Position numbers and translations under genes: made by a program
Part shown: one piece after another, positions 1-20,345 of the stretch
Position numbering within the stretch: the first letter of the stretch is position 1
Layout of the letters: each line of letters starts with the position of its first letter
The notes under the pieces: generated by a model
The model's input: only the letters and a program-made list of their open reading frames with translations
What the model was told of the DNA's origin: nothing
Databases searched by the model: none
DNA from: Streptomyces sp. Mut1
GTDB lineage: Bacteria; Actinomycetota; Actinomycetes; Streptomycetales; Streptomycetaceae
Direction of reading: 5' to 3'
Assembly (NCBI RefSeq): GCF_030719295.1
Contig: NZ_CP120997.1
Coordinates: forward strand, 186,001-250,000
Length of the DNA stretch: 64,000 nt

Positions 1-3000
1 TGGTCAGGTGGGTGACGCCCCGTTCGCGTACGAGTGCGGCCAGGGCCGGGCCGGGCAGCAGGGCTTCACGTGTGTCGATCTCCAGGCAGGCTCCGGAGAG
101 CAGGCCCATGCACAGCTCCCAGAACGCGGCGTCGAAGCTGACCGACGCCATGTGCAGCACCCGGCTGCCGGGCCCGACGCGCAGCCGCTCGCTCTGGGTC
201 CTGGCCATGGCCCGGACGCCGCGGTGGGTGACGACGACGCCCTTGGGGCGGCCGGTGGAGCCGGAGGTGTAGATGACGTACGCCGGGTTGGCCGGGTGTG
301 CGGGGGCGGGGCCGCGGGTGGGGGTGCGCCCGTCGGTGGCGAGGTCGTCGGTGTACAGGTGCGGCACCGCGTTCCCGGGGAGGCGGTCGTGGATCGCGGG
401 GGTGGTGAGGAGCAGGCGCGGGTTCGCGTCGTCGAGCATGTAGGACAGGCGCTTGGCCGGGTAGTCGGGGTCCAGTGGCACGTAGGCGGCGCCGGTCTTG
501 AGGACGGCGAGCAGGGCCACGACGAGGTGATGGGTGCGGGGCAGGGCGACGGCGACCCGGTCCTCGGGACCGACCCCCCGGTCGGCGAGGTGCCGGGCGA
601 GGGCGTCGGCGCGTGCGTCGAGTTCGCCGTAGCCGAGGGTGGTGTGCGCGTCGCGGACCGCCGGGGCGTCGGGGGTGCGCCGGGCCCACTCCTCGAAGAG
701 CGCGGGGACGGTGGTGGCGGGCAGGCCGTCGTCGGGCCCGGTGCCGAGGGCGGTGAGGCGGCGGTGCTCGGCGGCGGTGAGCAGGTCGTACGTGTGCACG
801 GGCCGGTCCGGGTCGGCGGTGACGGCGCCGAGCAGCAGGACGAGGCGGTCCGCGAGGCCGTGGACGGTCGGGGCGTCGAACAGCTCGGTCGCGTAGTCGA
901 CGGTGGCCCGCATGCCGTCGAGGGCGCCGGTCTCGTCGTAGGTCTCGGTGAAGGCGAACGACAGGTCGAACTTGCTGACTTCGGCCTCGGCGGGCACCCC
1001 GGAGACGGTGAGGCCCGGCAGGTCGACGGCGGCGGACGCCTGGTTCTGGAGGACCAGCATGGTCTGGAAGAGCGGGTGGTGGCTCTGGGCGCGCGCGGGG
1101 TTGAGCAGTTCGACCAGGCGCTCGAAGGGCACGTCCTGGTGGGCGTACGCCGCCAGGTCGAATTCCCTGACGCGGCCGAGGAGTTCGCGGAAGGTCGGGT
1201 CGCCGCTGAGGTCGGTGCGCAGGACGAGCGTGTTGACGAAGAAGCCGACGAGACCCGACGCGGCTTCGTCGGTGCGTCCGGCGACGGCGGTGCCCAGGGG
1301 GATGTCGTCCCCTGCGCCGTGCCGGGACAGGACGGTCGCCAGGGCGGCCTGGAGCACCATGAAGACGCTGCATCCGCAGGCGCGGGCGAGTTCGGTGACC
1401 TGGCGGGCGGTGGCGGGGTCGACCGAGAAGCCGAGGGTGGCCCCGGTGTGCCGGGAGGTGGCGGGGCGCGGCCGGTCCCAGGGCAGCTCGACGGCTTCCG
1501 GGAGCCCGTCCAGCGCGTGTTTCCAGTGGGCGAGCTGACGGCATACGAGGCTGTCGGCGTCCTGTTCCTCGCCGAGCAGGTCGCGCTGCCACAGGGTGTG
1601 GTCGGCGTAGTCGACGGGCAGCGGCGCCCAGGAGGGTTCCTCGCCGCGGACGCGGGCCCGGTAGGCGGCGCCCAGGTCGTGGGCGAGAGGGGCCAGGGAG
1701 GTGCCGTCGGCGGCGATGTGGTGGACCACGAGGACCAGGACGTGGGCGTCGGGGTTCAGCCGCAGGAGGGTGGCCCGCAGGGGCAGGCTGCGCTCGATGT
1801 CGATGGGTTCGGCGGTGGCTGCCGCGACCCGGTGGCGGAGCTTGGCCTCGTCGACGGCCTCCATCGCGAACGGGATGAGGACGTCGTCGGGTGCGGTGAT
1901 GTGCTGGTGCGGTCCGTCGTCGCCCTCGGGGAAGACGGTGCGCAGGGCGGCGTGCCGGCCGATGAGGTCGGCCACGGCCCGGCACAGCGCGTCCGCGTCG
2001 AGCGGTCCGTCGATGCGCACGGCGAGCGGGATGTTGTACGTGGCGGAGGGGCCGTCGAGCCGGTGCAGGAACCACAGGCGCTGCTGGGCGTAGGACAGCG
2101 GGAGCGTGGCGGGGCGCGGCTGCGGGACGAGGGCGGGGCGGGTGGTGCCGTCCGCGCCCTCAAGGGCGGTGGCCAGCGCGGCGACGGTGGGGTGTTCGAA
2201 GAGGGTGCGGATGTCGGTCTCGGTGTGCAGGGCGGTGCGGATGCGGCCCACGAGACGGGTGGCGAGCAGGGAGTGGCCGCCGAGGGCGAAGAAGCTGTCG
2301 TCGGTGCCGACGCGGGGCACGCCGAGCACGTCGGCGAACAGTCCGGCGAGGATCTCCTCCATGGCGCTGCGCGGCGCGCGTCCGGCGACGGTGCGCGGTC
2401 CCGTGGGGGCGGGCAGGGCGGCCCGGTCGATCTTGCCGTTGGGGGTCAGGGGCAGTGCGTCGAGGGGCTGGATGACGGCGGGCACCATGTAAGCGGGCAG
2501 CAGGCGGCCGACGTGGGCGGCGAGCAGTCCCGGGTCGGGGGTCTCGCCGTCGGCGGGGACGACGTAGGCGGTGAGGGTGCGGTCGCCCGGCAGGTCCTCG
2601 CGTACGAGGACGCAGGCGGCGCGCACGGCCGGGTGGTCGCGCAGGACCGTTTCGATCTCGGCGGGTTCGATGCGGTGGCCGCGCAGTTTGATCTGCTGGT
2701 CGGCGCGCGCCACGTAGGTCAGGCTGCCGTCGGCGCCGCGGCGCACCAGGTCGCCGGTGCGGTACATCCGGCCGCCCGCCCGGTCGAAGGGGTCGGCGAC
2801 GAAGCGGGTCGCGGTCAGGGCGGGCCGGCCCAGGTAGCCACGGGCGACGCCGGGGCCCGCGAGGTACAGCTCGCCCTCGGCGCCGGGCGGCACGGGCCGC
2901 ATCCCGGCGTCCAGGACGTAGGCGCGCATGCCGTCGAGCGGGCGTCCGATGGGGGCCGCGCCGCCGGGGGCGTCGTTGGGGCGTACGTGGTGGGCGGTGG

Positions 3001-5305
3001 CGAAGGTGGTGGTCTCGGTGGGCCCGTAGACGTGCAGGACGGTGGTGCCGGGGTGGTCGGCGGCGAGGCGCTGCATGGCTCCGGGGGCGGCGGCCTCGCC
3101 TCCGGCGGCGACCAGGCGCAGTTGTCCGAGGCAGTCCGGGTCGGTGTCGGCCAGGACGTTGAACAGGGCCGTCGTCAGGAAGGCGGCGGTGACGCCGTGC
3201 CGGGCCACCAGGTCCCGGAGCGCGGAGGGCTGGAGCGGCCCTTCGGGTGCCACGACGACGCGGCCGCCGTTGAGGAGCGGGGTCCAGATCTCGAAGGTGG
3301 AGGCGTCGAAGACGTACGCGGAGTGCAGCAGGACGGCGTCGGCGGCGCCGTCGCCCCAGCCCCGGTGGGCCGCCAGCGCGCCGACGTCGCCGTGAGTGAC
3401 GCCGACCCCCTTGGGCAGTCCGGTGGAGCCGGAGGTGAACATCACGTACGCGAGGCGGCGGCCGCCCGTGGCCTCGGGGAGCGCGCCGGGGGCGGCCGGG
3501 CCCCCGGTGTGGACCCGGCCCGCCGCGTCGACGCTCAGCACGGCGGTCCCGGCGCCGAGCCGGCGGACCCACGGGAGGGTGCGGGTCGTCTCGTCGACGA
3601 CGAGGACCTTCAGGGGGACGACCTCGGTGACGCGGTTGAGCCGTTCGGTGGGCCAGCGCGGGTCGAGCGGGACATAGGCGGCGCCCGCGCGCAGGGCGGC
3701 GAGCGAGGCGGTGACGGTGGCGGCCGAGCGGGCGACGAGGATGCCGACGCCGTCCTCGGGGCCGGTCCCGAGCCCGGTGAGCGCGCCCGCGAGGTCGTCC
3801 GCGAGGCCCTGGAGCTGCCCGTACGTCAGCTGCTCGCCCGCCCCGGACACGGCCACCGCGTCCGGGTGGCGGCGGGCGCGCTCGGCGACGGCCCCGGGGA
3901 TGCTCACGGCCGTTGTTCCGCCGGGGAGTCCGTCGCCCGTCCCCTGGGCGATCAGGTGCTCGTGCTCGCCGTCCAGCAGGACGGGGGCGGTGTCGGCGCG
4001 GCCGTCGAGGCCCTGGGCCATGGCGGTCAGCAGGTGCCGCAGGCGGGAGACGGTGTGGGCCACCTCCTGCCGGTCGAGCACGGCGGGCCGGTAGCCGAAG
4101 GTGATCCGCAGGGTCTCCCCCGGCGCGACGGTGAGGGTGAGGGGGTAGTGGGCGGCGTCGGTGCCGCTGAATCCGGTGACGGTGAGTCCGGGCAGTCCGC
4201 GCTGGGCGGTGCGCAGGGCCTCGTCGTCCATCGGGTAGTTCTCGAACACGACCAGGGTGTCGAAGAGTTCGTCCAGGTGGGTGACGCCCCGGATGTCGCT
4301 CAGGCCCACGTGCCGGCTGTCCAGGAGCCGGCCCTGCTCCTCCTGGAGCCGGGTCAGCAGCCCGGCCAGGGTCTCGCCGGGTGCGGGGCGGAGCCGTACG
4401 GGGACGGTGTTGATGAACAGGCCGACCATGGACTCGATGCCGGGGATCTCCGGCGGGCGTCCGGAGACGGTGGCGCCGAACACCACGTCGGACCGGCCGG
4501 TGAGGTGGCCGAGCAGCAGTCCCCAGGCGCCCTGGACGAGGGTGTTGAGGGTGAGGCGGTGGGCGCGGGCCGTCTCGCGCAGGCGGTGCGTCGTCTCCGC
4601 GTCCAGGTCGAGGACGAGCGTCTCGGGCAGCTCGGCCGGGCCGGGGCCTTCCCCGGCGCCCGGGCCGGCGAGGAGGGTCGGCGTCTCGATTCCGGCCAGG
4701 GCGGCGGTCCAGGTTTCGAGGGCGGCGGCGCGGTCCTGCTGGGAGAGCCATACGAGGTAGGTGCGGTAGGGGGTGACGCGCGGCAGGGCGCTGTCGTCGC
4801 CGCCGGACGCGTACAGCTCGAACAGCTCCCGTACGAGCACGGGCAGCGACCAGCCGTCGAACAGGATGTGATGGCTCGTCATGACCAGGCGGTGCCGCCC
4901 GGGTGCGGTGCGCACGAGGGTGAACCGCATCAGGGGCGGGGTGGCCAGGTCGAAGCGGCGGGTGCGGTCGGCGGCGAGGAAGGCCGTCAGCCGCTGTGGC
5001 GCGTCGGCGTCCGGGTCCGGGCCGGTCAGGTCCAGTTCCTCCAGGGGGACGGGGACCTCGGCCGCGACCGCCTGCACGGGCTCGTCCAGGTCCTCGTGGA
5101 GGAAGCCCACGCGGAGGTTGGCGTGGCGGCGCAGCAGGGCGCCGATGGCGGCGCGCAGGGCGGGGACGTCGACGGGGCCCTCGATGTCGAAGACGAACTG
5201 CGCGGTGTAGACGTCCACGGCGTGGGAGTCGTAGAGGGCGTGGAAGTACATGCCGGCCTGCAATGGCGTCAGGGGGAGTACGTCCTCCAGTTGGAACCCG
5301 TTCAC
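1..5305 (-). CDS. Non-ribosomal peptide synthetase, modules 5-6 (C-A-T-C-A..., cut by the window edge)
   Basis: About 1768 residues are visible; the 3' end lies outside the window. Domain order: a DCL-type condensation domain (residues about 1-440, starting with an LTPLQ..M.FH motif, active site HHILFDG near 145); an adenylation domain (about 450-980, core [10 protein letters not shown] near 628); a carrier domain (GGHSLL near 1006); an LCL-type condensation domain (HHIAADG near 1195, with an AQQRLWFL start); and the beginning of a second adenylation domain ([10 protein letters not shown] near 1678). The DCL type fits the epimerase that ends the upstream protein. The GTG start at 5305 overlaps the upstream TGA as GTGA and is preceded by GGGGTGGA, so the two proteins are probably translationally coupled. 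The first A domain has the same readable pocket residues as A1 and A3 of the upstream protein. The second is of another type, but its pocket is incomplete here. Confidence 0.95.
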
Positions 5306-8300
5306 TTGCGTCCACCCCACTTGTTCTGCAGTCGGTCGATCTGGTTCTGGTTGAGCGAGACCAGAGGAAGGTCGGACGGCGTGTAGCCGCCTGCTCCGGG
5401 CTGTTCGGCGTGCTCCGCGATGGCGCGCAGGGCACGCGTGAAGGCGTCGGCCAGGGCGCCCACGTCCTCCTCCTTCAGGAGGTCGCTGGGCCAGGTCCAG
5501 CGGGCCACCAGGCGGGGGCCGTCCGGCAGGTCCTCGGTGTGTGCGTTGATGTCCAGGACGTGGTGGACGGGCATGTCGGGGTCCTGGCTGCGCGGCCCGC
5601 CCGCGTCGAGCAGGACGTCCCAGTCGCCGCCCGCCGCCGTCCCGGCCGCCGCGTACCGCCCCAGGTAGTTGAAGCCGATCTGGGGTGCGGCGGCGGCCAG
5701 CCGGGGGCCGGTCGCGGGGTTGAGGTGGCGCAGCATGCCGTAGCCGACGCCGTGGTCGGGGACGGCCCGCAGTTGCTCCTTGACGCGCTTCACTGCACGT
5801 TCAACGAGCGCGGCGCCGAAGCGTGCCGGGTCACGTCCGTCGAGCGGTCCGGGGTCGAGCCGGACCGGGTGGAGACTGGTGAACCAGCCGACCGTGCGGG
5901 ACAGGTCGATGTGGCCGGCGATCTGTTCGCGGCCGTGGCTCTCCAGGTCGAGCAGGACGGCGGTGTCCGGCCGGGGGGAGCCGGGCCGCTGGGCCCGCCA
6001 GGCGTTGACGGCGAGGGTGAGTCCGGTGAGCAGGATGTCGTCGACTCCGGCATGGAAGGCGCCGGGGACGGTGGTGAGCAGGGGCTTCGTCCAGGTGGCG
6101 GGCAGATGGGCAACGAGGGTGCGCGTCCCGTCGGCGGTGTCCAGGTAGGGGTCGAGCGGCCGGTATCCGAGCTGCGGGTCGGGTGTTTTCAGGGCCTCCT
6201 CCCAGAGCGGGAGTTCGGCCTGGCGTTCCGTGCCGTTGGCCTGCTCGGTGAGGAGCTGTGCCCAGCGCCGGTAGGAGGTGGTCGCGGCGGGCAGCGCGGT
6301 GTGCGGGCCGGGTGCCTTCCCGGCGGACGTCGCCCGGGTCGCCGCCTGCCAGGCGCGGGCCAGGTCCTCGGCGAGGACGCGCCAGGAGACCGCGTCGACG
6401 GCCAGGTGGTGCACGACCAGGAGCAGCCGGCCGCGTTCCCGGGGGCCGGCGTCGGCCCACACGGCTTCGAACACGGACCCGGCCGAGGGCCGCAGGCGCC
6501 TGCGGGCCCGTTCGCCCGCCTCGGTGAGGACGCCGCGGACGGCGTCCGCGTCGAGCCCGGTGATGTCGACGCGGGTCAGGCGGCGCCGGGCCGGCACGGT
6601 GCCGGGCGGCAGCGTGTGCAGGACGGGGTCGCCCCCGGCGGTGCGGGTGACGCGCAGGCGGAGCATGTCGTGGTGGTCGGCGAGGAGTTGGAGGGCGGCG
6701 GCGAGGGTGTCCTCGTCGGCTCCGGCGGGGGTGCTCAGGACGCCGGACTGGTTGTAGCCGTCCGTCGTGCCGGGGCGCTCCAGGAGCCAGGCGGCGATGG
6801 GCGTCGGTGGCATCTCGCCGGTGCCGTGGCCGGCCGGTTCGGTGGTGCTGCCGTCGAGCGGGGCGGCGACGGCGGCGATGGCCTCAGGGGTGCGGTGGGC
6901 GAAGACGTCGCGGGGTGTGACGGCGAGCCCTGCTTCCCGTACGCGGCTGACGAGCTGGATGGACAGGATGCTGTCGCCGCCGAGCGCGAAGAAGTCGTCG
7001 TCGGCGCGCACGGCGGCGGAGGCGCGCAGTACGGAGGCGAAGGCGTCGCACAGGGCGCGTTCCGCCGCGGTGCGCGGCTGCCCGCCGGGCCGGCCGGCGG
7101 CGGGGAGCGCCGGGGCGGGCAGGGCGGCGCGGTCCGTCTTGCCGTTCGGCAGGAGCGGCAGTGCGTCCAGGGCGACGAAGGCGGCGGGCACCATGTAGGG
7201 CGGCAGTGACGAGGTCAGCCGGCCGCGCAGTTCGCCGTCGGTGAGCGGGGCGGAGCCCACGGTGTAGGCGACCAGGCGCCGTTCGCCCGGCCGGTCCTCG
7301 CGGACGAGTGCGCAGGCGGCGGTGATGCCGTCGACTGCGGTGAGGGCGGCCTCGATCTCGCCGAGCTCGATGCGGAAGCCGTGCAGCTTGACCTGGTCGT
7401 CGGCGCGGGAGACGTAGTGGAGCAGTCCCTCGTTGTCCTGTCTGACGAGGTCGCCGGTGCGGTACATGCGGCTTCCCGCCGGGCCGAAGGGGTCGGCGAC
7501 GAACCGGGTCGCGGTCAGGGCGGGGCGGCCCAGGTAGCCGCGGGCGAGGCCGTCGCCCGCGATGTGGAGTTCGCCGGTGACTCCCGGCGGGACCGGCCGC
7601 AGCGCGGCGTCAAGGACGTAGGCGCGGGTGTTGTCGACGGGGCGGCCGAGGGGGATGCCGCCCTCCTGCGCCGTGCTGTCGTCCGCCTCGGCGCGGAGGT
7701 GGTGGGCGGTGGCGTCGATGGTGGTCTCGGTGGGCCCGTAGAGGTTGTGCACGGCGGCCAGCCAGGTGCGGCCGGCTCGTACGGCCAGGGCCCGGGGCAG
7801 GGGTTCGCCGCCGCAGGCGACGGCCCTCAGGGTGGTGGGCGCGTCATCGGGGCCGGTCTCGGTGAGCAGCAGGGACAGGTGCGAGGGCACGAACTGGGCG
7901 ATGGTCACGCCCTCCTCGCGCATCCGCGCCAGCAGCCCGGCGGGGTCGTGGTTGAGCGCGGGCGGGACGGGGCAGGTCGCGCCGCCGTGCAGCAGGGGCA
8001 GCCAGGTCTCCCACACCGAGGCGTCGAAGCTGGGCGAGGTGCGCGCGAGGACCCGGTCCTCGTCGGTCAGGGCGAGGTGGCGGGCCATCCACGCCATGTG
8101 GTTGGCCAGGGCGGCGTGGGTGACGACGACACCCTTGGGCCGCCCGGTGGAGCCCGAGGTGTAGATGACGTACGCCGCGTCGTCCGGCTCCGGCGCGGCC
8201 TCGGGTGGCGCGGCGCTTCCGGTGGCCCAGGCGGTCCGGTCGTCGAGCGCGAGGAGGGGCACATTCGTGAAGCGGGCGGCGCGGGCGGCGCCGTGGACGA

Positions 8301-11300
8301 GGAACAGCGCCGGGCGCGCGTCGTCCAGCATGTGGGTGACGCGTGCCTCGGGGTAGTCGAGGTCGACGGGCAGGCAGGCGGCCCCGGCCTTGGCCACCGC
8401 GAGCATCGCGACGACCTGCTCGGCGGTCCCTTCGGCGGCGAGGGCGACGAGATCGCCGCGGCCGATGCCCCGCGCGCGCAGGTGCCCGGCCAGGGCGTCG
8501 GACAGGGCGTCCAGTTCGCCGAAGGTGAGCCGCCGCGCGCCGGCCCGGACGGCGGTCTGCCCGGGTGTCCGGGCGGCCTGTGCGCGGAACGCCTCGGGGG
8601 CGGTACGTGCGTGCACGGGGCGGACCGGGCCGTGGGAGGCCCGCTCCAGCGCCGCGCGTTCGTCCGCGCCGAGGAAAGCGGCGGTGCGGACGGGTCCGTC
8701 GGGGTCGGCGGCGAGCGAGGCGAGCAGGCGGGTCAGGCGTGCGGCCAGGGCGTGTGCGGTGGTGTGGGTGAACAGGTCGGTGGAGAACTCCAGGACTCCG
8801 TCGAGACCGGCGGGCCGGCCCGCCTCGTCGCGGCTCTCGGTGAAGGTGAAGGTGAGGTCGAACTTGCTGATGCCGGTGTGTACGGGCTGTTCGGTCACGG
8901 TGAGAGCGTGCAGGCCGAGCGAGGTGTCCGCCTGGTTCTGGAGGACGATCATCGTCTGGAACAGCGGGTGGTGGTCCTGCGCCCGGTCCGGGCTGAGGGC
9001 GTCCACCAGCCGCTCGAACGGCACGTCCTGGTGGGCGTAGGCGGCCAGGTCGAACGCCCGTACGCGGTCGAGCACTTCGGTGAAGGCGGGGTCGCCCGTC
9101 AGGTCGGTGCGCAGGACGAGGGTGTTGACGAAGAAGCCCACCAGGTCGTCCAGCGCTTCGTCGGTGCGCCCGGCGACGGCGGTGCCCAGCGGGATGTCCT
9201 CACCGGCCCCGTGCCGGGAGAGCAGGACCGACAGGGCGGCCTGGAGCACCATGAAGAGGCTGCACCCACGGGCGTGGGCGAGCTCCGCGAGTGCCCGGTG
9301 CGTGTCCGCGCCGACGGGGAAGGTGAACGCGTCCCCGCGGTACGTCGTGACGGCGGGGCGCGGCCGGTCCAGGGGCAGGGTGAGCAGACCGGGCGCGTCC
9401 GCCAGGGCGGTGCGCCAGAAGTCCAGCTGGCGCGCGCCCCGCCCGGCGGTGTCGTCCGCCTCGCCGAGGAGGGCGCGCTGCCACAGGGTGTAGTCGGCGT
9501 ACTGGACGCGCAGTCGCGGCCAGGAGGGCTCCTCGCCGTGGATCCGGGAACGGTAGGCGTCGCCGAGGTCGCGGGCCAGCGGGGCAAGCGACCAGCCGTC
9601 TCCGGCGATGTGGTGGACGAGAAGGACCAGGACGTGGGAGTCGGGGCCGAGCCCGAGCAGCCTGGCGCGCACCGGGAGGTCGGTGCGCACGTCGAAGGCG
9701 TGCGCCACCTCGGCGCTCAGCACCTCCTCCAGGCGGGACGGGTCGATGTCCCGGGGTGTCAGGTCCAGGTCGGCGCCGGCCGCGTCGAGGACGAGCTGAC
9801 GGGCCACCCCGTCGGTCTCGGGGAAGACGGTACGCAGGCTCTCGTGGCGTTCCACGACGTCCCCGAGGGCGCGCTCCAGGGCCTTCGCGTCGAGCGGTCC
9901 GTCCAGGCGGAGCACCAGCGGCACGTTGTAGGTGGCGCTGGGTCCCTCGAACCTGTTGAGGAACCACAGGCGTTGCTGCGCGAAGGACAGCGGCAGCGGA
10001 TCGGGCCGGTGCCGGGCGGGCTCCAGGGCGCTCCCGGCCGCGTCGGCGCCGTCCAGCGTGGCGGCGAGCGCGGCCGGCGTGGGGTGTTCGAAGACGGCCT
10101 TGACCTGGACCTCGACGGCGAGTGCGGTCCGGATGCGGGCGACGAGCCGGGTGGCGAGCAGGGAGTGGCCGCCCAGGGCGAAGAAGTCGTCGTCCACGCC
10201 CGCCTCCCGGATGCCGAGCACATCGGCGAAGAGTCCGCAGAGGATCTCCTCGCGTGCGGTGCGGGCGGCGCGCCCGCGTGGCGCGGCGCGGTGCTCGGGC
10301 GCGGGCAGGGCGCGGCGGTCCACCTTGCCGTTGACGGTGAGCGGCAGCGCGTCGAGCAGGACGAACGCGGCGGGCACCGTGTAGGCGGGCAGGGACCGGG
10401 CGACGGCTTCGGCGAGGTCGGCGGGGTCGGGGCGGGCGGAGTCCGTGGGCACCACGTAGGCGACGAGCCGGCGGTCCCCGGGGGTGTCCTCGCGGACGAC
10501 GGTGTAGGAGTCGGCGACGCCTTCGCAGCAGGCCAGCACGGATTCGATCTCGCCGGGCTCGATGCGGTAGCCGCGCAGTTTGACCTGGCTGTCGGCGCGG
10601 GAGACGTAGGCGATCTGCCCGTCCCTGGTCCACCGGACCAGGTCGCCGGTGCGGTACATGCGCCCGCCCGCCGGGTCGGCCGGGTCGGCGACGAACCGGG
10701 TCGCGGTCAGGGCCGGCAGGCCGGTGTATCCACGGGCGAGGCCGCGCCCCGCGAGGTACAGCTCGCCCGTGACCCCGGCGGGTACCGGGCCCAGGGAGTC
10801 GTCGAGGACGTACAGCCGCATGCCGTCCAGGGGGCGTCCGATGGGCGGCGGCCCCGACGGCAGGTCGGCGGTCACGTCGTAGCGGGTGGCGAAGGTGGTG
10901 GTCTCGGTGGGCCCGTACACATGGAGGACGCGTACGCCGGGTGCGGCGCCCGCGACCCGCTGCATGGCGTCCGGTGAGGCCAGTTCGCCGCCGGCGCAGA
11001 CGAGGCGGAGACCGGCGAACGCGCCGGGTCCGGTGTCGGCGATCACGTTGAGCAGGGCCGTCGTCAGGAAGACGGCGGTCACCCCCTGCTCACGGACGGC
11101 GTCGCCCAGGATCCGGGCCTCCAGGACGCCGTCGGGTGCGACGACGACCTTGCCGCCGTGCAGGAGCGGGGCCCAGATCTCGAAGGTGGAGGCGTCGAAG
11201 ACGTACGCGGAGTGCATCAGGACCGCGTCGGCCGCGCCGTCCCGCCAGGCGGAGTCCGCCGTCAGCGCCGCCACGTCGGCGTGGGTGACGCCGACGCCCT

Positions 11301-14300
11301 TGGGCAGGCCGGTCGAGCCGGAGGTGAACATGACGTACGCGAGGCTGTCGGGCCCCGGTACGGCGGCGGGGCGGCCGGTTGCCGGGGGCGCGCCGCGCAG
11401 GACGCGGCCGGTCCGGTCGACGACCAGGACCGGGATGCGGTGGGCCGTCTCCCGCACCCAGGCGGTGGCCGCGGCCTGTTCGTCCACGACGAGGACCCGC
11501 ACGTCCGCCACGTCGGTGACCTGTTCGAGCCGTTCCCGGGGCCAGCGCGCGTCCATCGGGACGTATGCGGCGGCCGCGCGGACAGCGCCGAGCGACACGG
11601 TCACGACGGCCGGCGAGCGGCTGAGTAGTACGCCGACGCCGGTCTCGGGTCCGGCCCCCAGACCCGCCAGGGCGTGCGCGAGTGCCAAGGACGCCCGGTC
11701 GAGTCCGGTGTACGTGAGGCAGGTGCCGTCGTCCGATACGGCCACGGCGTCCGGGGTGCGGTGTGCCTGCGCGGCGAAGAGCGCGGGCAGGGTGGTCTCC
11801 GGTGCGGGGGCGGGGAGTTCGCGGCCGGTGCCCCAGTGGGTGACGCGGCCGTGTTCCTCCGGCGTCAGCAGGTCGTAGTCCGCCAGCGGCAGGCCGGCGT
11901 CGGCCGTCACCTGTCCGAGGAGGGTGAGCAGACGGTCCGCGAGGGCTTCGGCGGTGGCGCGGTCGAAGAGGGCGGTCGCGTACTCGATCCCGGCGGTGAG
12001 ACCGCCGCCGTTCTCCTCGCCGAACGCGAAGGTCAGGTCGAACTTGCTCAGTCCGTTGTGGACGAGCCGGTCCTCGACGGTGAGGCCCGGCAGTTCGGGG
12101 CGGACCGCCTCCTGGTTCTGCAGGACCAGCATGGTCTGGAAGAGGGGGTGGTGGTTGCGTGCCCTGACCGGGTTGACGCTCTCGACGAGCCGCTCGAAGG
12201 GCACATCCTGATGCGCGTAGGCCGAGAGGTCGAACTCCCGGACACGAGCGAGGAGTTCACCGAAGGTCGGGTTGCCCGCGAGGTCGTTGCGCAGGACCAG
12301 GGTGTTGACGAAGAAGCCGACCAGGTCCTCCAGCGCCTCGTCCGTGCGGCCGGCGACGGGGGTGCCGAGCGGGATGTCGTCGCCCGCGCCGTGCCGGTGC
12401 AGCAGGGTGGCGACCGCCGCCTGGAGCACCATGAACAGGGTGCTGCCGGACTCCCTTGCCAGGCGCAGCAGTCGTGCGTGCAGTTCGGGCGGTACGTCGA
12501 AGCTGTGGACGGCCCCCGAGGGGTCGGTGATGACGGGACGCGGCCGGTCCAGCGGCAGGTCGATCAGGCCGGGCAGGCCGGCGAGCGCGGTGTTCCAGTG
12601 GTCGAGCTGCTCGCGCAGCACGCTTCCGGGGTCGTCCGCGTCACCCAGGACGGTGTGCTGCCACAGGGTGTAGTCGGCGTACTGGAGCGGACTGCCCGCC
12701 TCGGGCCCGTGACCGGCGAGCCGGGCCCGGTAGGCGTCGCCGAGATGGCGGGCGAGCGGGGCCAGGGACCAGCCGTCGCCCGCGATGTGGTGCAGGACGA
12801 GCACGAGGACGTGGCGGCCGGGTGCGGTGCGCAGGAGCAGGGCGCGCAGCGGCGGGTCGGTGAGCACGTCGAACGGCTCGCCCACGGCGTCCAGGACCGC
12901 CGCTTCCAGCTCGGCGGGGGCCGTGCGGAGCACCGGCAGACGCGGGACGACCGCTTCGGCGGGAAGGACGACCTGGTGCGGCACTCCGTCGCGTTCGGGG
13001 AAGACGGTGCGCAGCGACTCGTGCCGTTCCACGACGTCCCGCAGTGCGGCGCGCAGGGCGACGGTGTCCAGGGGGCCGTCGATGCCGAGGACGAGCGGAA
13101 TGTTGTAGGAGGAGCTGGGTCCTTCGAGCCGGTTCAGGAACCAGAGCCGCTGCTGTGCGTGGGACAGGGGAAGCGGGTCGGGCCGGTCCGCGGCGGGCAG
13201 CACCGGCGGACGGGAGCGCCCCTGGGAGTCGAGTGACCGGGCGAGCCCGGCGACGGTCGGGTGCTCGAACAGGGTGCGTACGGCGATGTCGCTGCCGAGG
13301 ACCGCGCGGACTCGGCTGACGACGCGCATGGCGAGGAGGGAGTGTCCGCCGAGGTCGAAGAAGCTGTCGTGCGGGCGGACCTCCGCGCGTCCCAGCACAT
13401 CGGCGAGGATTCCGGCGAGCAGGTCCTCGCGCGGGGTGTGCTCCCCCGGGCCTTCGATGGTGGTCCCGGCGTCCGCTTCGGGCCGGGGCAGGGCGCGCCG
13501 GTCCGTCTTTCCGTTGGGCAGGAGCGGCAGTGCGTCCAGGACGACGACGGCTGCGGGCACCATGTAGTGCGGAAGCGTTTCGGCAAGGGCGTCGCGCAGC
13601 GCGGCGGGTCGGATTCCGGGGTCCGTGGTGACGGCGTACGCGACGAGGCGGAGGTCGCCGGGTATGTCCTCCCGGATGACGGCGCAGGCGGCGGTGACGC
13701 CGGGCCGTGCCAGCAGGGCGGCCTCGATCTCGCCGGGTTCGATACGGAAGCCGCGCAGTTTGACCTGGTCGTCGGCGCGGGAGACGTAGGCGAGCAGCCC
13801 GTCCCGGTTCCACCGTACGAGGTCGCCCGTGCGGTACATGCGGGCGCCGGCGCCGTCGAAGGGGTCGGCGACGAACCGTGCGGCGGTCAGACCGGGCCGG
13901 CCCAGGTAGCCGTGGGCCAGGTTGGGGCCGGAGAGGTACAGCTCGCCGGTGACCCCTGCCGGTACGGGCCGCAGCCGGTCGTCCAGGACGTAGGCGCGCA
14001 TGGTGTCGACGGGCCGGCCGATCGGCACCGTTTCGTGCGGGGTGCCGGTGCCCGCGGTGGCGGGGACGCGGTGGGCGGTCGCGTCGATGGTGGCCTCGGT
14101 CGGGCCGTAGAGGTTGTGCACCTGGGCCTGCCACAGCATGGCCGTGTCGCGTGCCAGGGCGCTCGGCAGTGGTTCGCCGCCGCACAGGACGGCGCGCAGG
14201 CCGGGCAGGGGCGCGGCGTGGGCCGCTTCGGACAGGACGAGGCTCAGGTGGGAGGGGACGAACTGGGCGACGGTGACGCCGAACCGGCTCATCCAGGTGA

Positions 14301-17300
14301 CCAGCGCGTCCGGCTCGGTGTTGGCCCCGGGCGGCAGCACGCAGACCTCGGCGCCGTTCATCAGGGGGAGCCAGAGCTCCCAGACGGACGCGTCGAAGCT
14401 GGTGGAGGTGCGGGCGAGGACGCGGTCCTGCGGGGTGATCGCCAGGTGCCGTGCCATCCAGGCCATGTGGTTGGCGAGGGCGGCGTGCGGCACGACCACG
14501 CCCTTGGGACGGCCGGTGGACCCGGAGGTGTAGATGACGTAGGCGGGGTCCGCCGGGTGCGGTGCGTCCGTCGGCGGCGTCGTGGGGGGTGCGGTCCACA
14601 GCGCCGGGTCGTCGAGGGCGAGCCGGGGGATGTCCCCGGCGGGCAGGTCCGGGTGTACGTCCCCGGTGGTGAGGAGGAGGACAGGACGGGCGTCGTCCAG
14701 CATGTGGCGGATGCGGGCGTGGGGGTACCGCGGGTCGACCGGCAGGTGGGCGGCGCCGGCCCGCAGCACGGCCAGCGTGGCGGCCACGGTGTGCACGGAG
14801 GGCGGTGCGGCGACGGCGACCCTGGTCCCCCGTGCCGCGCCCCGCGCGCGCAGCACCTGGGCGAGGGCGTCGGCGCGGGCGTCGAGTTCGGCGTAGGTGA
14901 GGTGGGTGTCCGCGTCGCGCACGGCGACGGCGCCGGGCGTGCGCCGGGCCTGTTCGCGGACCGCTTCGGGGGCGGTCGGCACCGGCAGCGCGCCGGGCAC
15001 GCCGCGTCCCTGAGTGAGGAGTTCGTCGCGCTCGCCGGGGGTGAGCGGGTCCAGGCCGCTGACGGGGCGGCCGGGGTCGGCCACGGCCTGGGTGAGGACG
15101 CGGGCGAAGCGGGCGCACAGGGCGCGGGCGGTCGCGGCGTCGAAGAGGTCGGTGGCGTACTCCAGATAACCGCCGATGCCCCGGGCACCGGGGCCCGCGC
15201 CCCGCTCGTCGCCCCCGGCGGGTTCAGCGGTCCCGGCGGTCCCGACGGCTTCGGCGGGTTCGGTGGTTTCGGTGGCTTCGGTCAGTGAGAAGGTCAGGTC
15301 GAACTTGCTGCCTCCGCGGTGCCGGGACCGGTCGTGGACCGTGACGCCCGGCAGGTCCAGCTCGGCCCGCTCCTGGTTCTGGAGGACCAGCATCGTCTGG
15401 AAGAGCGGGTGGTGGTCGCCGGACCGCTCCGGGTTGACGGCCTCCACGATCCGCTCGAAGGGGAGGTCGCTGTGGCCGAGGGCCGCGATGTCGAACTCCT
15501 TGACCCGGTCGAGCAGTTCGCGGAACGTCGGGTCGCCGGAGAGGTCCGTGCGCAGAACCACGGTGTTGACGAAGAAGCCGACCAGATCGTCCAGGACCTC
15601 GTCGGTGCGCCCGGCGACCGCCGTGCCGAGCGGGATGTCGGTGCCGGCGCCATGGGCGCGGAGCGTCACGGCGAGGGCGGCACGGAGCACCATGAACGGG
15701 GTGCAGCCGGCGTCGCGGGCGAGCCGGACGAGCGCGGCGTGCGCGGGTGCGGGCAGTTCGAAGGGTACGGAGGCGCCCCGGTGGCTGGGCACGGCCGGGC
15801 GGGGCCGGTCCAGGGGCAGGTCGAGCAGGTCGGGGATGCCGCGCAACGCCTCCTGCCAGAAGGTGAGCTGGCGGGCCGCCAGGCTGCCGGCCTCCCCGTC
15901 CTCGCCGAGCAGCCGGCGCTGCCAGAGGGTGTAGTCGGCGTACTGCGCCCGCAGCGGCGCCCAGCCGGGTGTGCCCGTTCCCTCGCTCCTGGCCCGGTAG
16001 GCGGCGGAGAGGTCACGGCTGAGCGGGGCGAGGGACCAGCCGTCGGCGACGATGTGGTGCAGGACGAGGACCAGGACGTGCCGGCCGGGTCCCGGGCACA
16101 GCAGGTGGGCGCGGAGGGCGGCGTCCTCGGTGAGGTCGAAGGGGGCGGTGCTCAGGCGGCGTACCGCTTCGCGCACCCAGGCATCGGCGGCCTCGCCGGC
16201 CGGGGGGTGTTCGACGGGGAGCGGTACGAGGGAGGCGGCGGACGCCGCGTCGATGATGTGCTGGCGGGGGACGCCGTCGTGTTCGGCGAAGACGGTGCGC
16301 AGGCTCTCGTGCCGGGCGACCACGTCGGCCAGCGCGGCGCGCAGCGCGTCGGTGTCCACGGGGCCGTCGAGTTCGAGGACGAGCGGCACGTTGTACGTGT
16401 CGCTCGGGCCGTCTGCCCGGTTGAGGAACCAGAGGCGCTGCTGCGCGAAGGACAGCGGGAGCACGTCGGGTCTCGGCTGCGGCGCGAGAACCGGCCGGGC
16501 CGCGCCGGAGGTGTCCAGGACGGCGGCGAGGGAGGCGACCGTGGGGTGGGCGAAGAGGGTGCCCAGGGCGAGTTCGGCGCCCAGGGCCGCCCGCACCCGG
16601 CCGGTGAGGCGGGCGGCGAGCAGCGAGTGGCCGCCCAGGGCGAAGAAGCTGTCGTCCACACCGACCGCGTGTACCCCGAGGACATCGGCGAACAGCCCGG
16701 CGAGGACCTCCTCGTACGCGGTGCGCGGGACCCGGCCCGTACCGGTGGCGGTGCGCGGCGCGGGCAGCGCGCGGCGGTCGACCTTGCCGTTGGGGTTCAG
16801 GGGCAGGGCGTCGAGCGTCACGAAGGCGGAGGGCACCATGTACGCGGGCAGCGCGCGGCCGATCCGGCGGGCCAGGACGGCGGTGTCCGGGCGGGCGCCG
16901 GGGGCGGGCACCACGTAGGCGACGAGCCGGCGGTCGCCGGGGGTGTCCTCGCGTACGACGACGCAGGCGCCGTGCACGTCCGGGTCGGTGAGCAGGACGT
17001 GCTCGGTCTCCGCGGGCTCGATGCGGAATCCGCGGAGCTTGATCTGGCCGTCCGCCCGCCCCACGTACTCGATGTCGCCCCCGGCGGTCCAGCGCACGAG
17101 GTCGCCGGTGCGGTACATGCGTGAGCCCGGCAGCCCGTACGGGTCGGCGACGAAGCGGCCGGCGGTCAGCGCGGGCCGGCCCTGGTATCCGCGGGCGACA
17201 CCGTGACCGCTCACGTACAACTCCCCCACGACGCCCGGCGGCACCATGCCGAGAGTGTCGTCCAGGACGTACAGGCTCATGCCGTCCAGTGCGCGGCCGA

Positions 17301-19725
17301 TGGGCGGTACCCCGCCGCTGTCGGCGGTGACGGGGTGGCGGGCGGCGAACGTGGTGGTCTCGGTGGGGCCGTACACGTGCAGGACGAGCGTGCGGGGCGA
17401 GGCGGCGGCGGCCCGCTGCATCAGGTCCGGCGTCGCGGCCTCGCCGCCGGCGGCGACCAGCCGCAGGCCGGAGAACACCGCCGGGTCCGCCTCGGCCATC
17501 ACGTTGAACAGAGCGGTCGTCAGGAACAGCGCGGTGACACCGTACGTGTCCGCCATGTCGTGGACGACGCGTGCCTCCAGGACGCCGGGGGGTGCGACGA
17601 CCACGCGGCCGCCGTTGAGGAGCGGCACCCAGATCTCGAAGGTGGAGGCGTCGAAGACGTACGCGGAGTGCATCAGCACCGCGTCGGACACACCGCCGGT
17701 CCAGGTGCGGTCGGCGGCCAGCGCGAGGATGTCGGCGTGGGTGACGCCGACGCCCTTGGGCAGGCCGGTGGAGCCGGAGGTGAACATGACGTACGCGAGC
17801 CGGTCGGCTCCGCCGGTCCGGGGCAGCGGGCCCGGCCGGGGCGGCGTTCCGCGCAGCACATGGCCGCGCGCGTCCACGACGAGGAGCGGGAGACCGGCTG
17901 CGGCGGCCGCCCGCACCCAGGGCGTGCGGGCGGCCGCCTCGTCGGCGATCAGGGCGCGGACGCGGGCCGCTTCCGCGACGCGGTCGAGCCGTTCGGCGGG
18001 CCAGGCGGCGTCCATCGGCACATAGGCCGCGCCGGCGGCGACCGCGCCGAGGGTGGCGGTCAGCACGGCGGCCGAACGACCCACGAGCACGCCGACTCCG
18101 TCCTCGCCGACGATGCCCAGGCCGGTCAGGGCGCCCGCGAGGGCGTCGGCGGCCCGCTCCAGCTGCCGGTACGAGACGATGAGGGCCGCGTCCACGACGG
18201 CCGGGGCGTCCGGCGTGCGGCGCACCTGCGCGCGGAACGCCCGGGGCAGATCCGGGCCGGCGGCCTGTGCGGGCAGAGCGGTGCCGCGCCCCTGGTCGCG
18301 CAGTACCCGGACGGCGGTGTCGTCCAGGAGCGGCAGGTCGCGCAGGGGGAGGCCGGGGCCGGCGTCGGCCAGGGCCGTCACGAAGGACACGACGGCCCGT
18401 TCGTGCAGCTGGACGTCCTCGGGGCGGTACAGCTCGGGGTTGGCGTCGAACCCGATCAGCGGCCCCTTGCCCTCGGCCCGTTCGGAGACGAAGAGCGACA
18501 CGTCGTCCACCGGGCCGATGGACAGCACCCGCGAGGGGGCCGGGACGCCGGCGAGGTCGAGGTCGTAGTCGTAGCCCATGATGTTGACGACGACGCCGGT
18601 GAGGCGGGACGCGTCGTCGCTCATGCCGAGTTCACGGGCGAGTTGTTCGCGTGAGAAGCGGCGGTGGCGCAGGGCGCCGCGCATCTCGTCGGCGACCTCG
18701 CGGATCAGGGCGCCGACGGTCATGTCGGCGGTGAGGGTGAGGCGCAGCGGCAGGATGTTGGACGTCATGCCGACGATGTGGCGCAGTCCGCCGTGCCGGC
18801 CGTTGGAGGCCAGGCCCACGGTGACGTCGCGGTTTCCGGTGACCCTGGCGGTGTAGGCGGCGACCGCGCTCACCATGACCGCGCTCCAGGTGGTGCGGTG
18901 GGCGGCGGCGAGCCGGCGCAGGCCGTCGAGAACGCTCACGGGCAGTGTCTCGCCCGTGTGCAGCCGTACCTCGGTTCCGTCGGGGCCGGGCGTCGCGGGG
19001 GTGTCGGTGCGCCGGCGGATGAGGGTCCTGCCGCTGTGCGCGTCGTCGCCTTCCCCGGCGGCGCCGGGGGCCAGGTCGGCGAACCTGCCGGTCCAGTAGG
19101 CGCGGTCGGCCTCGTAACGGCCGGAGTCGCGGTAGGCGGTCTCATCGGCGACGAGTTCGCGCAGGGGCGCGGCGGGCAGGGTGACCCGGGCGAGGTCCTC
19201 GCCCCGGACGGCCCGGCCGTAGAGGTCGGCCACGGTGCGGGTGAAGACGGCGCCGCCGAGACCGTCGACGGCTATGTGGTGGAAGCGCACGTACCAGTAG
19301 CGCAGCCCGCCGCCGGCGCGCAGCAGTGCGAAGTGGTGCTGCGGGCGGTGGAGTGTGTCGGCGGACGCCATGTCCTCGGCGAGATAGCGCTCGACCTCGG
19401 CGGCGGGGTCGGCGGAGCGGGACAGGTCCACGGTACGGAGCCGGCCGGTGTCGGCCCGGGGGTGGCGGACGACGCGCTGGCGGACGGTGTCGCTCTCCGT
19501 GACGAATTCGAGGTTCAGGCTGTCGCACAGGTCGGCCGCCCGGTCGACCGCTGCGGCGAATAGCGTCTCGTCGAGGTCGCCCCGGATCTCGAAGCATTCA
19601 CCGATGTTGTATTTCGGACTGTCGGGGTCGACCAGCTGCCCGTACCAGACGCCCCGTTGGGCGATGGTCGTACCGAAGAACTCATCGAGAACCGATTCCG
19701 AGGCGACAGATCTGTTTTCGCGCAT
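5302..19725 (-). CDS. Giant four-module non-ribosomal peptide synthetase (C-A-T)x4 with terminal epimerase
   Basis: Cytoplasmic megasynthase of about 4807 aa that activates and joins four amino acids. Order by approximate residue: C1 1-460 (HHIAVDG near 150), A1 480-1000, T1 (GGHSLLA) 1028, C2 (active site 1226), A2 (1736 core), T2 2128, C3 2313, A3 2805, T3 3185, C4 3372, A4 3862, T4 (GGDSILS) 4247, epimerase 4280-4740 ([10 protein letters not shown] near 4440, RTVGWFT, FNYLGRY), then a short C-terminal tail that may be a docking peptide. C2-C4 look like LCL domains. C1 resembles the EntF condensation domain, which takes an acyl or aryl starter. By alignment to GrsA, A1 and A3 both read D-A-F-F-V-A-V-T-F, and A2 and A4 both read D-A-W-Q-V-C-L-I-D. 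The second code resembles a remembered Gln code; the first may be an aliphatic residue. Both readings are tentative. The ATG at 19725 has AAAGG 11 bases upstream; the alternative GTG at 19737 has no spaced site. Confidence 0.97.
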
Positions 19726-20001: not shown

Positions 20002-20055
20002 TCGATCAGCACGCTCACTTGATCGATTTTGCTCGAATGCGAGCAGTGTCGATCA
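20002..20055. promoter_or_regulatory. Cluster of TGATCGA inverted half-sites with a 36-base imperfect palindrome
   Basis: Half-sites TCGATCA (20002-20008), TGATCGA (20020-20026) and TCGATCA (20049-20055) form two overlapping inverted repeats. Within the second, TGCTCG-AATG-CGAGCA (20030-20045) shares exactly the same centre, which gives a symmetrical 36-base element at 20020-20055. It sits 72 bases past the end of the MbtH-like gene and about 300 bases upstream of the NRPS. It could be an operator or an RNA hairpin. No T-run follows it on the minus strand. Confidence 0.5.
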
Positions 20056-20126: not shown

Positions 20127-20345
20127 CTATCCGGCGTCGGCCTCCATCGCCCGCACCAGGCCGGCGGGCCGCATGTCGGTCCACGCGGCCTCGATCGCGT
20201 CCAGACACTCCTGCCGCGATCCTTCCGGACCGCCGACGCTCCAGCCGCCCGGGATCTCGATGTGCGCGGGCCACAGCGAGTACTGACCCTCGCCATTCAC
20301 CAGCGTCACGAACCGACCCGACTCGTCATCGAAAGGATTGGCCAC
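20127..20345 (-). CDS. MbtH-like protein (NRPS adenylation partner)
   Basis: A 72-aa protein with the full MbtH signature: N-E-Q-S-W-P around residues 17-25, then PGGW, a conserved leucine, and WTDMRP near 56-61. MbtH proteins bind adenylation domains and help them fold and activate amino acids. It is the first gene of the NRPS set, on the same strand, and probably serves the megasynthases downstream. The GTG start at 20345 has a GGGGGAC ribosome site a few bases upstream. The length is typical of the family. Confidence 0.93.
   Translation of the reverse strand: MANPFDDESGRFVTLVNGEGQYSLWPAHIEIPGGWSVGGPEGSRQECLDAIEAAWTDMRPAGLVRAMEADAG

Follow-up and report, generated by a model that had tools for sequence, protein, structure and literature searches.

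Flavopeptins are N-capped peptide aldehydes that inhibit the proteasome and cysteine proteases. In Streptomyces sp. NRRL F-6652 they are made by a nonribosomal peptide synthetase (NRPS) that contains a reductase (R) domain. Here, we describe a locus in Streptomyces sp. Mut1 that consists of an mbtH gene and two NRPS genes, NB and NC. It lies at one edge of the window, by which we mean the whole 64,000-nucleotide stretch analyzed (bases 186001 to 250000 of the main contig, NZ_CP120997.1, of an 8.0-Mb genome). We put the probability at about 0.78 that mbtH, NB, and NC form a six-module assembly line making an acyl-hexapeptide with a terminal aldehyde.

The predicted product resembles the flavopeptins, its closest known counterparts, in having an N cap, a peptide aldehyde, a reductase-terminated NRPS, and a Streptomyces host; they are likened by description, not by residue order or genes. 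It shares reductive release as a C-terminal aldehyde with leupeptin, antipain, chymostatin, MAPI, and tyropeptin, where an R domain is listed for them in PMC10548850. It would differ from these in its six modules and repeated Val/Ile-Gln unit; the listed aldehydes are shorter and partly ureido-linked. As far as tested, mbtH-NB-NC belongs to the terminal-reductase peptide-aldehyde kind of NRPS.

A six-module assembly line predicted to release a peptide aldehyde

The genes, domains, pocket codes, and reductase motifs and their conservation in relatives are read directly from the sequence (Table 1). Domain matches bear out the preliminary description of a four-module NRPS with an epimerization (E) domain at 5302 to 19725 on the reverse strand, next to a second NRPS gene. 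In the proposed pathway, the starter condensation (C) domain C1 would couple an acyl group to Val/Ile; the chain would then be extended by Gln, Val/Ile, a second Gln that is epimerized to D, a third Val/Ile, and Phe; and the reductase at the end of NC would free it as an aldehyde. The product, whose substrates, acyl cap, and stereochemistry we infer, would be acyl-(Val/Ile)-Gln-(Val/Ile)-D-Gln-(Val/Ile)-phenylalaninal. With X as the residue of adenylation (A) domains A1, A3, and A5 and Y as that of A2 and A4, this retains the core order X-Y-X-(D)Y-X proposed earlier, which the domain order, the codes, and the E domain of module 4 support. With Val at all three X positions, the calculated mass of H-Val-Gln-Val-Gln-Val-phenylalaninal before acylation is 702.406 Da, to which every replacement of Val by Ile would add 14.016 and an isobutyryl cap 70.042.

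The terminal domain of NC is a thioester reductase (PF07993, NAD_binding_4, 203.8 bits) that follows the last thiolation (T) domain, with no thioesterase in that place. This domain, which lies outside the window, aligns throughout its length with solved R domains, and its nucleotide-binding and YxxxK motifs, both of which have catalytic roles in reductases, are intact. Among full-length R domains of relatives, TGxxGxxG is present in 27/27 and YxxSK in 26/27. Release as an aldehyde rather than an alcohol is what we would predict for this terminus.

At the other end of the assembly line, C1 is only 23 to 24% identical to the other C domains. Among solved structures, C1 is closest to the 7c1k group (the rhizomide RzmA starter C domain) and to the C domain of CDA peptide synthetase I, both of them starter C domains. 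This proximity to acyl-starter C domains suggests that C1 probably N-acylates the peptide. No acyl ligase or carrier gene is conserved beside mbtH-NB-NC, so free acyl-CoA is the likely donor. C5 is also divergent (29 to 32% identity to C2, C3, C4, and C6), which fits a DCL domain placed after an E domain. Together, the E domain of module 4 and the divergent C5 point to D-Gln at position 4.

Pocket codes and predicted substrates

The GrsA segment was verified against PDB 1AMU, and 107 A-domain segments, GrsA included, were aligned so that the codes could be read with GrsA numbering. Two types alternate along the assembly line (A1/A3/A5 and A2/A4), until the Phe-type A6 breaks the pattern. The preliminary description had given identical pockets within each type. 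Identity at all nine positions holds for A1 and A5; A1 and A3, like A2 and A4, are alike at 8/9 positions and differ at position 299 in the 1AMU-based alignment. Different pocket residues in a structure-based alignment were what the preliminary description had named as its refutation, and they occur at this one position. Simple motif anchors reproduce the earlier codes (DAFFVAVTF for A1/A3/A5 and DAWQVCLID for A2/A4). We dropped these because GGE-type domains are then read one residue too early at GrsA positions 299 and 301. The GrsA alignment gives outside domains codes of the usual Ser-like (DVWHFSLVD) and Val-like (DAYWWGGTF) kinds, and its register was therefore taken as right.

Relatives keep the difference between A1 and A3: across their 12 upstream loci, Ala299 in A1 and Cys299 in A3 are invariant (12/12 each), as are the full codes DAFFAGVTF at A1 and DAFFCGVTF at A3 (12/12 each), and DAWQLGLID occurs at A2 in 11/12. 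In a wider set of relatives' rows, with positions transferred pairwise from the GrsA alignment and some genomes in twice, so that rows are not independent, the counts were 11/11 DAFFAGVTF for A1, 37/41 DAWQLGLID for A2, and 41/43 DAFFCGVTF for A3. A4 rows had DAWQLGLID (20/31), DAWQAGLID (9), or DAWQLGLVD (2), i.e., Leu299 as in A2 in 22/31, and the A4 of the window has Ala299. For A5 the codes were DAFFAGVTF (25/32) and DAFFAGATF (6), and for A6 they were DAWTVAAVC (26/30) and DAWTAAAVC (4). Rows were assigned by best score; in this assignment A3 and A5 of Streptomyces noursei A-2-1 (L029) seem to be swapped and A4 of L008 seems to stand under A2, and A1 of L064 is omitted.

Published codes lie close to both types. 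PMC2866473 prints DAWQFGLIDK and DAWQTGLIDK as Gln codes, close to DAWQLGLID and DAWQAGLID, so that the earlier recognition of the second code as Gln-like stands. The first code had been left without a nameable match; once corrected, it is near DAFFLGVTFK, given for Ile, with Val as a variant, in cyanopeptolin synthetase (PMC2533009; also PMC13122637), and DAYFWGVTFK, which PMC9113097 lists together with DAYWWGGTFK as a Val code for lipopeptide clusters of Streptomyces, in some cases predicted homologues. A6 is predicted to activate Phe because its code compares with that of GrsA in the same alignment (DAWTIAAIC). Most likely, then, X is Val/Ile, Y is Gln, and the last residue is Phe. An arylglycine at X was also considered, as near solved relatives of A1 include teicoplanin A1 (hydroxyphenylglycine, Hpg) and its pocket mutants; it was dropped because the codes, once corrected, are Val/Ile-like, as are outside A domains.

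Several observations speak against the proposed product. DAFFAGVTF and DAFFCGVTF, with Ala or Cys at 299, had no printed match in the literature searched, so X may be another aliphatic residue. Which residue of the X-type domains falls at position 278 varies with the alignment: it is F with the motif anchors and in the GrsA alignment and L, V, or A in another MAFFT run. YxxSK was not found in the R domain of one relative (L042). Finally, neither an acyl-activating gene nor an exporter accompanies mbtH-NB-NC as a conserved neighbor in the relatives examined (12 upstream and 8 downstream regions).

The mbtH-NB-NC unit is conserved in changing surroundings

With the E-domain end of NB as the query, 260/295 Streptomyces genomes gave some match. 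Close relatives were found in 21/295 (the window's own genome and same-species genomes included), with best matches of 65 to 100% identity and E values of 3e-218 or lower; the best match in the next genome was 52% (E 1.5e-155). A pattern scan of genome contigs returned 37 loci, 34 of which have, wholly or partly, the A-domain types of the family; the others (L038, L040, and L041; 42 to 47%) were set aside as other NRPSs. When the A6-R part was used as a protein query, 7160 proteins matched at an E value of 1e-60 or lower, and the best 120 of these are 70 to 98% identical and come from Streptomyces wherever an organism is named. The mbtH-NB-NC gene set occurs in a minority of Streptomyces species.

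All 12 upstream regions of relatives contain mbtH (71 to 100% identity). Flanking genes were called as open reading frames (ORFs) of at least 90 amino acids with GC content at third codon positions (GC3) of at least 0.8; mbtH was missed in that pass and found through PF03621. Besides the NRPS genes, no gene of at least 90 amino acids was common to more than two of the 12 upstream and 8 downstream regions. Since mbtH, NB, and NC are kept together while their flanks differ, we conclude that they are the conserved unit.

More likely than not, this family is that of the flavopeptin synthetases, in which case the product would be a flavopeptin or a close congener and only the host would be new, an identity compatible with the assembly line proposed here. 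The flavopeptins are N-capped aldehydes from a terminal-R NRPS in Streptomyces. Among the matches listed, orthologues of NC from Streptomyces pratensis are 75 to 76% identical over the A6-R part, and S. flavogriseus ATCC 33331 has since been reassigned to S. pratensis. The name flavopeptin reportedly derives from S. flavogriseus. A tentative proposal, and the less probable of the two, is that the product of the three-gene family is instead a hitherto undescribed acyl-hexapeptide aldehyde that has a Val/Ile-Gln repeat and differs from the flavopeptins.

Origin of the alternating A domains

The A-domain frameworks alternate as first described: segments are 60 to 63% identical among A1, A3, and A5 and 59% between A2 and A4 versus 43 to 47% between types (module-wise, 62 to 66% for modules 1, 3, and 5 and 62% for modules 2 and 4). 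The preliminary description had read this as a duplicated two-module block and had proposed an A-domain phylogeny and a DNA self-comparison as checks. In a quick tree of 97 rows, with outside A domains from 21 other NRPS-rich genomes, A1, A3, and A5 form one clade and A2 and A4 another (SH-aLRT 100 each), and both stand separate from the remaining Streptomyces A domains in the sample. In searches with A1, the best-scoring full-length outside match was 52% identical, and partial matches reached 58% over ∼240 residues, versus 66% between A1 and A3; outside matches to A2 reached 56%, versus 63% between A2 and A4 in the same searches. The self-comparison gave dimodule repeats of 3.0 kb at an offset of 6459 and 1.7 kb at 6372 (Table 1). 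The longest self-match joins 8116 to 11777 (A3-T3-C4) with 224 to 3888 (A5-T5-C6) over 3.7 kb (71.6%, offset 7889), and a third repeat copy may thus include module 5 and C6. From the extents of these self-matches, the repeat reaches from one A domain to another.

The C domains do not bear out duplication of an entire C-A-T-C-A-T block: C2, C3, C4, and C6 are all mutually 55 to 59% identical and do not alternate. In a C tree whose outside rows were the C domains of the neighboring seven-module NRPS only, the sisterhood of C2 and C4 is weak (85/54), with S. noursei C6 inside; holding C2 and C4 together was not rejected (p-AU 0.297). In the A tree, A3 and A5 of S. noursei join A1 of L064 and do not follow module position.

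The alternation might instead have come from repeated exchange of A cores by recombination or gene conversion, with the other parts homogenized module by module and no single dimodule duplication. The equal likeness of the four C domains fits such exchange, as do DNA self-matches of 2.0 to 2.1 kb at single-module offset, which cover the C-terminal part of the A domain, T, and C and avoid the A core. So does the S. noursei A-2-1 locus (L029, 1 to 9975), where A2 and A4 are very close (path 0.076) and C4 and C6 are joined (99/95). The same locus has an 82.6% DNA match over 3.6 kb at the dimodule offset, and its repeats appear to reflect recent homogenization in that lineage. We nevertheless consider A-core exchange the less likely origin of the alternation: the dimodule-offset matches run through an A core, T, and C (3.0 kb) and then the next A core (1.7 kb), and C2 and C4 stand together in the best tree, albeit weakly. 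Most likely, the two A-domain types go back to an old internal duplication in dimodule register that preceded the divergence of the present family members and was followed by later exchange.

Gene layout and neighboring loci

The coordinates of all features are collected in Table 1. NC probably starts at a GTG that overlaps the stop codon of NB, judged from the N termini of relatives, so that translation of the two genes would probably be coupled. We take the last C-like domain of NB, with its weak PF00668 match and its motifs, to be the E domain of module 4.

Table 1. Features of the mbtH-NB-NC locus (positions in the window)
Feature	Position	Strand	Remarks
mbtH gene	20127..20345	-	72 amino acids; PF03621 match; ORF conserved upstream of NB in 12/12 relatives' regions
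NRPS gene 1 (NB)	5302..19725	-	C-A-T-C-A-T-C-A-T-C-A-T-E; start ATG at 19725 from conserved start region
C1	18319..19668	-	Starter-type (acylating) condensation domain, predicted
A1	17185..18237	-	DAFFAGVTF; Val/Ile predicted
C2	15016..16467	-	Domain match in two stretches
A2	13903..14958	-	DAWQLGLID; Gln predicted
C3	11851..13173	-	
A3	10726..11778	-	DAFFCGVTF; Val/Ile predicted
C4	8647..9996	-	
A4	7531..8589	-	DAWQAGLID; Gln predicted
E domain, module 4	5398..6768	-	Weak PF00668 match; HHxxxD motif
NRPS gene 2 (NC)	1..5305	-	C-A-T-C-A-T-R; continues outside the window to C1:183746 (contig position)
C5	3953..5287	-	Divergent
A5	2831..3886	-	DAFFAGVTF; Val/Ile predicted
C6	755..2107	-	
A6 (part)	1..697	-	DAWTVAAVC; Phe predicted; rest outside the window
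Repeat block A1-T1-C2	15274..18232	-	Matches 8832-11773 (A3-T3-C4); 3.0 kb, 72.7% DNA identity, offset 6459
Repeat block A3-T3-C4	8832..11773	-	Partner of 15274-18232
Repeat block around A2	13486..15165	-	Matches 7117-8793 (A4); 1.7 kb, 72.6%, offset 6372

Between mbtH and NB lies an imperfect inverted repeat of 36 bases (TGATCGA...TCGATCA, 20020 to 20055), the core pattern of which has a single match genome-wide. Five relatives have a hairpin in the same gap, with arms of 17 to 29 positions and a perfect 29-bp arm in G166. The repeat may act as an operator, a terminator, or an mRNA element. Covariation in the inverted repeat was not clearly above shuffles, and Rfam gave no matches in the window or in the mbtH-NB gap.

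To the left of the window, a seven-module NRPS of ∼7980 amino acids is encoded on the forward strand (contig positions C1:157055-181000), convergent to NC. Its locus (L002/L003/L005, C1:157055-183271) contains a separate mbtH gene (C1:181004-181159) and also encodes a P450 and an SRPBCC-like protein. The codes of the neighbor include Thr-like DFWNVGMVH, Phe-like DAWTVAAVC, and the near-identical pair DANEAGLVN/DADEAGLVN; by eye, module 6 carries a methyltransferase-like insert. NB and NC adjoin this NRPS both in the genome studied here and in G155, a genome of the same species, as they would if both formed one larger system. Such a joint system is highly improbable and was rejected: among the 8 downstream regions (20 kb each, reaching ∼11 kb beyond NC), the neighbor is present in the same-species genome only and absent from the other 7, it has an mbtH of its own, and its C terminus, judged by eye, reads as thioesterase-like. 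Further multimodular NRPS loci lie elsewhere in the window's genome (C1:398000-525000 and C1:6625000-6655000), some with mbtH nearby.

Implications

The one-residue shift at the GGE motif can make near-standard Ile/Val and Gln codes look new. The internal repeats, together with the apparent homogenization in S. noursei, offer a natural case of NRPS module duplication followed by joint evolution. The conserved three-gene unit, at ∼22.6 kb, is compact enough for heterologous expression, and its product is likely, by prediction, to be a covalent inhibitor of proteases or the proteasome; peptides with a reactive terminal aldehyde are an established class of protease inhibitors. If the aldehyde proves to be undescribed, codes so well preserved would hint at a single conserved target, which may be the proteases of the producer itself.

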